This document shows, one piece after another, positions 2,074 to 49,949 of a stretch of 64,000 nt of DNA (positions are counted from its first letter, which is position 1; each line of letters starts with the position of its first letter). The notes under the pieces are model-generated. The model did no database searches. It was not told where the DNA came from and worked only from the letters and a program-made list of their open reading frames with translations. A program made the translations under genes and the position numbers. Origin of the DNA: Cruoricaptor ignavus (GTDB lineage: Bacteria > Bacteroidota > Bacteroidia > Flavobacteriales > Weeksellaceae); NCBI RefSeq assembly GCF_900141665.1, contig NZ_FQYI01000001.1, forward strand, positions 186,001-250,000, in the 5' to 3' direction.

Positions 2074-2097
2074 AAAATCTTTAGCCGCAGTAATTTT

Positions 2098-2179
2098 TTT
2101 GGGCGCCTTTTCCGGCTATCCGCTGCTACTCCTCGCATCGCCGCTCCGCGGCTCTTCTGCGGGGTATCCGCTACTATCC
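2098..2179 (-). repeat. GC-rich dispersed repeat, copy 1
   Basis: Read on the minus strand it begins GGATAGTAGCGGATACCCCG, passes through a GCCGC...GCGGC foldback and GCGAGGAGTAG, and ends AGCGGATAGCC followed by a short tail GGCGCCCAAA. The same ordered blocks recur on the plus strand at 49798-49949. It lies between tRNA-Gly and tRNA-Thr(GGT), so it is transcribed as a spacer of the tRNA operon. No reading frame is supported. Confidence 0.75.
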
Positions 2180-2241
2180 GGGGCGCTATTACCGCAAACT
2201 TAAAAAAAAATCACAAACCAAAAAACCGGGTTGTGATTTTG

Positions 2242-18868: not shown

Positions 18869-20128
18869 TCAACTTAGAGTTTGCCAGAGTAAAACGAGGT
18901 TGAGAAGGATAATCATTGCCGTGATGGTAATCGCCACCGCCTGCTTCCTGCCGGAATTGCGGAAGGTACCCATTATTTTGCTGCTTCCTGTAAACTGCAC
19001 GAGGGGTACCACGGCAAAACTTAGCTGCATAGAGAGAATCACCTGGCTGAGAATCAGGAGCTCATTGGTGCCGCTCTCGCCGTAGAGGATTGCGACGATA
19101 AGTGCGGGGACTATCGCTATGAGCCGCGTGATAAGCCTCCTGGCCCAGGGCTTTAGCCGGATATGCACGAAGCCCTCCATCACAATCTGCCCGGCCAGCG
19201 TGCCGGTGAGCGTGCTGTTCAGCCCGGAAGCAAGCAGCGCTATTCCGAAAATTTTCGGCGCCCACTGGGAATTAAGGATGTTTCCGAGCATCTTGTACGC
19301 TTCCTGAATTTCTGCAACCCCGGTGTAGCCGCCGGTGTGGAAGGTGGAGGCGGCTACAATCAGTATAGCGGAATTGATGAAAAACGCCAGCAGTAGAGCT
19401 ATATTGCTGCCCCAGGTCGCAGCCTGGATTGCAGATTTTTTCCCATCCATCGTTCTCCGATAATTTTTATGATACACGATATGGCTGTGCAGGTAGAGGT
19501 TGTGGGGCATCACCGTGGCACCAAGAATGCCGATGCCAATGTAGAGCATCTCGCGGTTTTTGTAGATCTGCGAGGTTGGCACAAAACCATTTGCCACTTC
19601 TCCAAGATCCGGTTTTGAAAGAATAAGTTCATACCCAAAGCAAGCCAGCACGACGAACATAAGTGCTGCCACAATGATCTCCAGCGGGCGGAAGCCTTTG
19701 CGTTGTAGCAATAGAATCAGCAGCACATCGATACCGGTAATCACGATGCCCCAGACCAATGGAATTCCGAAAAGAAGGTTCAGGGCGATTGCCGTGCCGA
19801 TAACTTCCGCTAGGTCGCACGCTGCGATGGCTATTTCACAGAGAATCCAGAGTATAAAATTGACTGGTTTAGAATAATTTGCGCGGCAGGATTGCGCCAA
19901 ATCCATCCCGGTAGCTATACCTAATTTGATGCAAAGATGCTGGAGGAACATAGCGAATACATTCGATAGCAAGATCACGGACAGCAGCGCATAGCCGAAC
20001 CTTGCCCCGCCTTCTATATCCGTAGCCCAGTTGCCGGGATCCATATAGCCCACAGCCACCATAAGCCCGGGCGCGGTGAACATCAGCACGCTTCTGAGCT
20101 TATGATAAAATGTCTGACTTTCGAGCAT
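18869..20128 (-). CDS. mntH: Nramp-family divalent metal transporter, copy 1
   Basis: Proton-coupled Mn2+ (Fe2+) importer, 419 residues, 11 predicted membrane segments. The metal-binding signature DPGNWATDIEGG (segment 1) and MPHNLYLHSHI (segment 6) are intact. It aligns without visible gaps with the copy at 22524-23783; by eye about five of six residues match and both are 419 residues long. It starts only 6 bases after hutG and has no promoter or operator of its own, so it is expected to be expressed with hutI-hutG. That suggests a role in supplying Mn to HutG (inference). Confidence 0.95.
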   Translation of the reverse strand: MLESQTFYHKLRSVLMFTAPGLMVAVGYMDPGNWATDIEGGARFGYALLSVILLSNVFAMFLQHLCIKLGIATGMDLAQSCRANYSKPVNFILWILCEIAIAACDLAEVIGTAIALNLLFGIPLVWGIVITGIDVLLILLLQRKGFRPLEIIVAALMFVVLACFGYELILSKPDLGEVANGFVPTSQIYKNREMLYIGIGILGATVMPHNLYLHSHIVYHKNYRRTMDGKKSAIQAATWGSNIALLLAFFINSAILIVAASTFHTGGYTGVAEIQEAYKMLGNILNSQWAPKIFGIALLASGLNSTLTGTLAGQIVMEGFVHIRLKPWARRLITRLIAIVPALIVAILYGESGTNELLILSQVILSMQLSFAVVPLVQFTGSSKIMGTFRNSGRKQAVAITITAMIILLNLVLLWQTLS

Positions 20129-22523: not shown

Positions 22524-23783
22524 TTAAAATAATATCTGCAAAAGCAAGATTAAATTTAGGATAATGATAATGGCGGTGATGATGATGGCCACGGCTTGCT
22601 TCATACGGGAATTTTTGAAAACGCCCATTATCTTGCCGCTTCCCGTAAACTGCACCAAGGGTACTACCGCAAAACTAAGCTGCATCGAGAGTATCACCTG
22701 GCTCAAAATCAGCAGTTCATTCGTGCCGCTTTCACCATAGATTATTGCCACAATCAGCGCAGGCACTATCGCTATCAGCCGTGTTAGCAGCCGCCGAAGC
22801 CACGGTTTTAGGCGGATATGCATAAAGCCTTCCATCACAATCTGCCCGGCCAAAGTTCCGGTTAGCGTGCTGTTTAATCCCGATGCCAAAAGCGCTACGC
22901 CAAACACGATGGATGCCCATTTGGAATCCAGTATGTTGCCGAGCATCAGGTAGGCATCTTGAATTTCTGCGACGCCGGTATGCCCGCCAAAATGAAATGT
23001 AGATGCCGCCACAATTAGGATGGCCGAATTAATAAAAAGCGCGATTATCAGGGCAATGTTGCTACCCCAGGTTGCATATTTTATCGCCGATTTCTTGCCC
23101 GCTTCTGTTTTGCCGTATTTTTTGTGGTAAATGATGTGGCTGTGCAGGTACAGGTTGTGGGGCATCACGGTAGCGCCCAAAATTCCAATGCCGATATACA
23201 GCATTTCGCGGTTTTGGTAGATTTCCCTCGTTGGCACGATGCCTTCTGAAACAGCCTTCCAGTCGGGCTTTGAGAGGAAAAGCTCGTAGCCGAAGCACAT
23301 CAGGATGATGAACATTAGCGCCGCCACGATGATTTCAATGGGGCGGAAACCTTTGCGCTGCAGCATCAGAATCAGCAAAACATCGATGCCAGTAATCACG
23401 ATGCCCCAAACCAATGGAATTCCAAAAAGCAAATTCAGCGCAATAGCAGTACCAATTACTTCTGCCAAGTCACAAGCCGTAATGGCAATTTCGCAAAGAA
23501 TCCACAGTGTGAAATTAACAGGTTTGGAGTAATGTGCCCTACAAGACTGAGCCAAATCCAACCCGGTAGCTATGCCTAACTTTATGCAGAGATGCTGCAA
23601 GAACATGGCAAAAATATTAGAGAGGAAAATCACGGAAAGCAGTGTGTAGCCGAACTTTGCGCCCCCTTCAATATCCGTAGCCCAGTTTCCTGGGTCCATA
23701 TATCCTACCGCCACCATCAGTCCTGGCGCTGTGAACATCAGCACTGTTTTCAGCTTTTGGCTAAGTGTTTGGTTGCCTCCCAT
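22524..23783 (-). CDS. mntH: Nramp-family divalent metal transporter, copy 2
   Basis: Same family, length (419 residues) and motifs (DPGNWATDIEGG, MPHNLYLHSHI) as copy 1. The two differ mainly at the ends and in the loop after segment 5. This copy has its own promoter with an inverted-repeat operator and its own terminator, and it is divergent from the DtxR-family regulator gene. It is therefore the best candidate for the metal-regulated general Mn importer, while copy 1 belongs to the hut unit. Synonymous codon choice also differs between the copies, arguing against a very recent duplication. Confidence 0.96.
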   Translation of the reverse strand: MGGNQTLSQKLKTVLMFTAPGLMVAVGYMDPGNWATDIEGGAKFGYTLLSVIFLSNIFAMFLQHLCIKLGIATGLDLAQSCRAHYSKPVNFTLWILCEIAITACDLAEVIGTAIALNLLFGIPLVWGIVITGIDVLLILMLQRKGFRPIEIIVAALMFIILMCFGYELFLSKPDWKAVSEGIVPTREIYQNREMLYIGIGILGATVMPHNLYLHSHIIYHKKYGKTEAGKKSAIKYATWGSNIALIIALFINSAILIVAASTFHFGGHTGVAEIQDAYLMLGNILDSKWASIVFGVALLASGLNSTLTGTLAGQIVMEGFMHIRLKPWLRRLLTRLIAIVPALIVAIIYGESGTNELLILSQVILSMQLSFAVVPLVQFTGSGKIMGVFKNSRMKQAVAIIITAIIIILNLILLLQILF

Positions 23784-49768: not shown

Positions 49769-49797
49769 TGGATTTTGGCGGTGGGATTTTGCGTGAG

Positions 49798-49949
49798 GGA
49801 TAGTAGCGGATACCCCGCAGCGTAGCCGCGAAGCGAAGCGGAGCGGCAAAGCGAGGAGTAGAAGCGGATAGCCCGACGCTAAACGGAGTGAGTGGAGCGC
49901 GCGAGCGAAGCGAGCGCCGAAACGAACGAAGTGCAGCGGCACGCCCAAA
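49798..49949 (+). repeat. GC-rich dispersed repeat, copy 2
   Basis: Starts GGATAGTAGCGGATACCCCG, contains GCCGC...GCGGC and GCGAGGAGTAG, then AGCGGATAGCC, matching copy 1 (2098-2179, opposite strand). An extra stretch of about 65 bases rich in GCGAGCGAAGCGAGC follows before the common end CGCCCAAA. Confidence 0.75.

Follow-up and report, generated by a model that had tools for sequence, protein, structure and literature searches.

Flavo-1 (Rfam RF01705) is listed as a probable RNA that is not cis-regulatory in Table 1 of its defining paper (PMC2864571), and its Rfam type is 'Gene; sRNA'. According to the passages on Flavo-1 in a transcriptome study of F. psychrophilum, the matches occur in sense or antisense indistinctly, many of them lie outside transcribed regions, several coincide with 5' transcribed regions, and they gave no real clue to function (PMC9723704).

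GTAG REPs and REPINs with their RAYT resemble Flavo-1 in being short, dispersed, intergenic, palindromic, and present in many copies per genome. Flavo-1 differs from them in its length of about 80-150 bases, as against 20-40 bp for REPs (PMC3733652), and in its internal 3x3 loops. Furthermore, many Flavo-1 copies do not carry GTAG at the corresponding place, the motif being found inside some copies only, and Flavo-1 does not flank any of eight Y1 transposase loci as expected for REPINs and RAYT. MITEs and other non-autonomous transposons are small, non-coding, and dispersed, like Flavo-1, whereas in Flavo-1, apart from the hairpin stem, no terminal inverted repeats of the DDE kind are apparent; the outer stem measures only 3-5 bp. 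BIMEs and related mosaic repeats combine a mosaic make-up with exchange between dispersed copies, as Flavo-1 does; the difference is that the piece exchanged in Flavo-1 is the hairpin core, at a single site and with the frame around it fixed. This is what is new relative to the known Flavo-1: a hairpin with an outer frame and an interchangeable core, swapped at orthologous sites.

Two divergent Flavo-1 copies in the window

The window, which is the whole stretch of 64,000 nucleotides that was analysed, contains two copies of the repeat. An earlier sequence-only reading placed them at 2098-2179 on the minus strand and 49798-49949 on the plus strand, where both are present with the end blocks that it described. 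The outer ends had been drawn too short: copy 1 has a further outer stem, GCGCC/GGCGC, and the corresponding stem of copy 2 is GCGTG/CACGC. Copy 1 occupies positions 2094-2190 (minus strand), flanked by tRNA-Gly(TCC) and tRNA-Thr(GGT), and has frame A and a core of class M3. Sequence and fold place the 5' arm of its outer stem, GCGCC, at 2182-2186 (minus) and the 3' arm, GGCGC, at 2103-2107 (minus), followed by CCAAA. Copy 2 lies on the plus strand at 49787-49949, with aspS and a THX-like gene as its neighbours. Its core part (49787-49888, plus), also of class M3, is followed by an additional 3' hairpin like that of frame B (49874-49939, plus), recognised from the sequence and arranged alike in several copies of genome G128, and by the terminal CACGCCCAAA (49940-49949, plus). 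GCGTG at 49791-49795 can pair with CACGC at 49940-49944 to form the outer stem. Copy 2 had rightly been called the longer one (152 against 82 bases as first drawn, a difference of 70 rather than about 65), but the surplus was attributed to a longer variable middle, and most of it is the extra hairpin between the core and the terminal stem.

A covariance model, R1, was trained on 22 related elements, which included copy 1 and five other copies from the same genome; copy 2 was outside the training set. R1 matches in the 64-kb window exactly the two copies, with 100.8 bits (E 2.4e-27) for copy 1 and 65.4 bits (E 7.5e-17) for the core part of copy 2. A DNA search with copy 1 (E<=0.001) of the 2.23-Mb, 29-contig genome identified ten copies, both window copies included, and R1 recovers all nine besides copy 1, four of which were not used in the training. 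The core class is the same in eight of the ten copies, whereas L014 and L015 have another class. The sequence-only reading was right to propose a dispersed, non-coding foldback family that is REP-like in habit. The element is not limited to the two window copies, nor is its presence constant among relatives, as it is missing at one site from 8/23 genomes of a related genus. Elsewhere in the window, the segments 18882-19907 and 22537-23562 are 76-77% alike, in the same order and 3655 bases apart, which suggests a duplicated gene.

The family, which had been taken for an unnamed one, is not new. At a permissive threshold, the RF01705 model matches copies 1 and 2 across model positions 1-76 of 76, with 36.3 and 30.0 bits, respectively, both below the gathering score of 42. 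In the same comparison, 6/8 loci tested matched Flavo-1 and L006 and L010 did not, and the search of the whole genome identified eight copies at E<0.001, with copy 2 and L006 not among them. The window copies have the same paired arms, loops, and host group as Flavo-1, and differ from it in having a GC-rich core, of the class TACCCC...GAGGAGTA, and, for copy 2, an additional 3' hairpin. Comparison of the sequences indicates that the repeat is almost certainly a divergent copy of Flavo-1. Because the scores of the window copies are below the gathering score, while a sister copy of the same core class in the same genome reaches 44.7 bits and exceeds it, we assign the window copies to a divergent subfamily without calling them certified members.

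Hairpin structure and covariation

Folding the sense strand of copy 1 gives a hairpin in which an outer stem is followed by short helices that are parted by symmetric 3x3 loops. The loops and variable pairs were tabulated from 130 elements, of which 17 could not be parsed and three duplicates were removed, leaving 110; the parser demanded G-N-A in one of the 3' loops. G-N-A forms the first 5' loop in 109/110 parsed elements. In the second loop, either G-R-A faces G-N-A (57 on each side) or G-R-C (51) faces A-N-A (53). The four variable pairs are Watson-Crick in 432 of 440 cases, G-T in six, and unpaired in two. In the alignment of the GC-rich class, the covariation score was 0.128, compared with 0.073 in shuffled alignments (0/500 as high) and at most 0.091 in slid versions, and the number of paired cells exceeded all 500 shuffles and all slid versions. 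Two of the five alignment measures were within the range of the shuffles (57/500 for pairs changed on both sides and 390/500 for further pair types), and the outer helix was paired in 40% of cells. As computed, Flavo-1 is a dispersed intergenic foldback family in which one strand can form a long hairpin with covarying pairs.

Of three copies folded as sense-strand RNA, copy 1 had a z score of -3.95 relative to shuffles, and the other two had values of -0.92 and -1.50, which are not significant. Copy 1 was the sole tested copy that folded clearly better than shuffles, as RNA and DNA alike. For the second copy tested with DNA parameters the hairpin was not formed (z 0.13), although these parameters may give no credit to sheared G.A pairs. 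GCGAAGC, an unusually stable DNA mini-hairpin, is present in eight of the ten loci of the genome.

Frames and cores

Two frames enclose the cores and coexist within one genome. Frame A has the form TAGCCCCGAT...AGCGGG...GCTCCTAAA, and frame B, as seen in copy 2, has the form GCGTGAGGGATAG...GCCCG...extra hairpin...CACGCC. The core classes include M1 (GGAAATCC/GATTGCA), M2 (GGCATCC/GATATA), and M3 (TACCCC/GAGGAGTA); others exist. Among 127 distinct elements, the two sides of the core belong to the same class in 113, at least one side is unclassed in 14, and two different named classes are combined in none.

Some copies carry additional parts. An insert of about 45-50 bases, with a CTCTATT-like start and a GATTTG end, follows GATTG in the 5' arm at different sites of four genomes, L277 and L278 (G081, G121), L266 (G130), and L402 (G128), and could be another repeat nested inside the first. 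At L226, L247, L252, and L284, the 3' end of the element bears an optional stem-loop of some 50 bases in which the AGCTCC terminus of frame A is found again, and in G112 (L264) such a stem-loop stays although the core is absent. GATGACAAAA is located upstream of frame A elements. GACAAA lies within the last 16 bases before 26/130 elements and is absent from two control stretches; similar words are found in some hairpin tips.

Spread of Flavo-1 in related genomes

Of 100 genomes sampled from the family, 80 contain Flavo-1 at E<=0.01, 74 of them with a match above the gathering score; it was not detected in the remaining 20 or in any of 14 control genomes. A deeper search of three relatives identified 110, 68, and 125 copies. 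These counts agree with the occurrence expected of Flavo-1, in Bacteroidota and in many copies. When copy 1 alone was used as a DNA query, the family was found in only 4/40 relatives, indicating that the subfamily of the window is strongly diverged. A pattern scan of genome contigs returned 34 stretches, mostly in Bacteroidota records, with a few in MAGs that bear other labels; seven were checked with the Flavo-1 model, and five were positive at E<=1 and two negative. Plasmid and phage collections gave no match with a single 116-base query of the M1 class.

Core exchange at orthologous sites

Three sites from genome G008 (L157, L154, and L158) were traced through 23 genomes of its genus. At L157, 11 genomes have both flanks, with an M2 core in five and an M3 core in six; five further loci have one flank only, two of which are visibly M3. 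L154 has a classed core in 18/23 genomes (M1 in eight and M2 in ten), one flank only in four, and an absent core in one. At L158, 13/23 genomes are classed (M1 in five and M2 in eight), two are degraded, and eight do not contain the element. These eight absences are the variation in presence among relatives noted above. No clean empty site, such as the sequence-only reading had looked to, was found; at the L158 absences, the neighbouring terminator hairpin is also gone.

Genomes with similar flanks often contain different cores. Core classes differ in 25/52 genome pairs with flanks that average at least 90% identity, that is, in 8/14, 9/22, and 8/16 pairs at the three sites, the pairs being non-independent through shared lineages. 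The closest differing pair is G008 and G132 at L157, with flanks 96% identical. The frame and flanks are unchanged where cores have been exchanged. The core of L158 in G008 is identical to those of three other G008 sites, four sites in all, and the core of L158 in G050 is identical to that of another G050 site. Exact recurrence of a core at different sites of one genome was observed for only 2/115 distinct cores. Conversion from other genomic copies fits these observations best, and is a simpler explanation than repeated insertions at one and the same base. We consider it likely, from the comparison of orthologous sites, that cores are exchanged among copies by ectopic gene conversion. Core exchange is not mentioned in the passages that discuss or list Flavo-1 in the literature that we met.

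Genomic context of the copies

The sequence-only reading proposed that copy 1 is transcribed within a single tRNA precursor. This is doubtful, because a terminator-like hairpin with a T-run (2198-2240, also given as 2207-2240, minus, -14.1 kcal/mol, z -2.50) is positioned between tRNA-Gly and copy 1, which it precedes. The hairpin was not listed by a scan for consensus terminators. The Thr-Tyr-Gly tRNA unit may end before copy 1. At another locus of the genome, L003, a SAM-II riboswitch (1356-1414, minus) is located about 90 bases upstream of a Flavo-1 copy.

To count the orientation of neighbouring genes, a simple open-frame rule was applied, which disregards RNA genes. Among the 52 listed of the 125 copies in G128, 22 are antisense to both neighbours and seven are sense to both (P 0.008). 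Taken singly, the 3' neighbour is antisense in 36/52 cases (P 0.008) and the 5' neighbour in 31/51 (P 0.16), and the median distance to the neighbouring gene is 73 bases on the 3' side and 112 bases on the 5' side. Another 78 copies, with orthologues kept in, gave 38 antisense to both neighbours and 13 sense. Both window copies are sense relative to the downstream gene. The word TANNTTTG, the promoter box of Bacteroidota, is not enriched upstream of the elements (9/130, compared with 9.6 in shuffles).

The strands of the listed copies of G008 (54), G081 (44), and G128 (52) appeared to be segregated by chromosome half. The best two-arc fit was equalled by 27, 31, and 34 of 400 shuffles, respectively. 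With halves counted from position 1, strand agreed with half in 32/54 (P 0.22), 19/44 (P 0.45), and 17/52 copies, the last in the opposite sense and with a P of 0.018 that rests on the assumed origin. No replication-strand bias is claimed. The GC skew of 8-kb samples mostly tracked gene direction.

Nature of the repeat

The absence of promoter-box enrichment, the antisense-leaning context, and a transcriptome without a consistent strand lead us to favour a DNA element. Flavo-1 is probably a REP-like, non-autonomous DNA hairpin repeat that has been filed as an sRNA, a label that the present tests do not support. It would act as a DNA hairpin, for which expression as RNA would not be needed. The hairpin, extruded on a single strand, might be cut or stall a replication fork, and its repair from another copy would result in short-tract ectopic gene conversion that swaps the core. 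Our best guess is that Flavo-1 is mostly a selfish repeat, the shape of which would be maintained by copying and by the needs of hairpin recognition. Several results fit a DNA repeat less well: two of the three RNA folds are near shuffles and the second fold with DNA parameters did not form the hairpin, exactly recurring cores are rare, a replication-strand bias could not be demonstrated, the window copies are sense to their downstream genes, and the four variable pairs come from a parser that prescribed one loop. Moreover, a functional RNA would also give a conserved structure with covariation. A more elaborate proposal, which we regard as speculative and unlikely, is that Flavo-1 copies are not an RNA family but cassette-exchanging single-stranded DNA hairpins, in which the core inside the fixed frame is repeatedly rewritten from other genomic copies by a dedicated, putative non-Y1 nuclease or recombinase that recognises hairpins. 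The G-N-A ladder, which in several copies of the genome of the window ends in GCGAAGC, would be the recognition form.

The covariation of the pairs, the classification in Rfam and in the defining table (PMC2864571), and the F. psychrophilum matches that coincide with 5' transcribed regions (PMC9723704) would agree with a genuine structured non-coding RNA encoded by many paralogues, whose cores would differ as functional variants under selection. We give this a small chance, as the promoter box is not enriched, the neighbouring genes lean antisense, and the passages on Flavo-1 in the same transcriptome study describe no consistent strand and many matches outside transcribed regions; G-T wobbles, at 6/440, are also rare at the variable pairs, a rate that stands without a control. 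It is still less probable that Flavo-1 serves near the 3' ends of genes as a binding site, in DNA or RNA, or as a boundary element, such as a terminator or a site for a nucleoid protein or topoisomerase, that is kept for its function. Such a role would suit sites kept across many species of one genus, among which is L154, the shorter distance to the neighbouring gene on the 3' side in G128, and the copies that adjoin a terminator hairpin, but it is at odds with the absence of the element from 8/23 genomes at L158 and with copy numbers that range from none detected, as in 20/100 genomes, to 125. 

The last rival explanation is a mobile hairpin moved by a Y1 transposase (IS200/IS605 or RAYT-like), in which core differences would reflect the re-insertion of different copies. 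Y1 transposases are present in 60/100 genomes of the family, including one gene in the genome of the window, and their presence tracks that of Flavo-1 (both in 55, Flavo-1 only in 25, Y1 only in five, and neither in 15; odds ratio 6.6, P 6e-4), with a rank correlation of 0.58 for counts among the matches listed (up to 42 for Flavo-1) and phylogeny ignored. We nevertheless judge this explanation very unlikely, given that 25/80 genomes with Flavo-1 have no Y1 match, among them G050 (at least 42 copies) and G105 (37), that none of the eight Y1 loci examined has Flavo-1 within 1.5 kb, other short hairpins flanking them instead, and that the frame and flanks are intact at exchanged sites. A dedicated Y1 transposase as the necessary mover was rejected on account of the Y1-free genomes and the eight loci; Y1 may still have been a past helper of Flavo-1. 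The Y1 genes at L016 (G000:C19:287593-287937) and L129-L135 lie between their own short hairpin repeats, which are unrelated to Flavo-1; the example from the genome of the window is found around AGCGCGAAGCGCT.

The element is ordinary in its identity, a known Rfam motif, and it is the exchange of cores within a frame, together with the weak case for an RNA, that merits specialist attention. Should Flavo-1 prove to be a hairpin repeat of DNA that exchanges its cores, covariation alone would have misled the assignment of the RNA label, and the orthologous sites would make the exchange directly testable. Many loci annotated as 'sRNA' in Bacteroidota would then be repeats.
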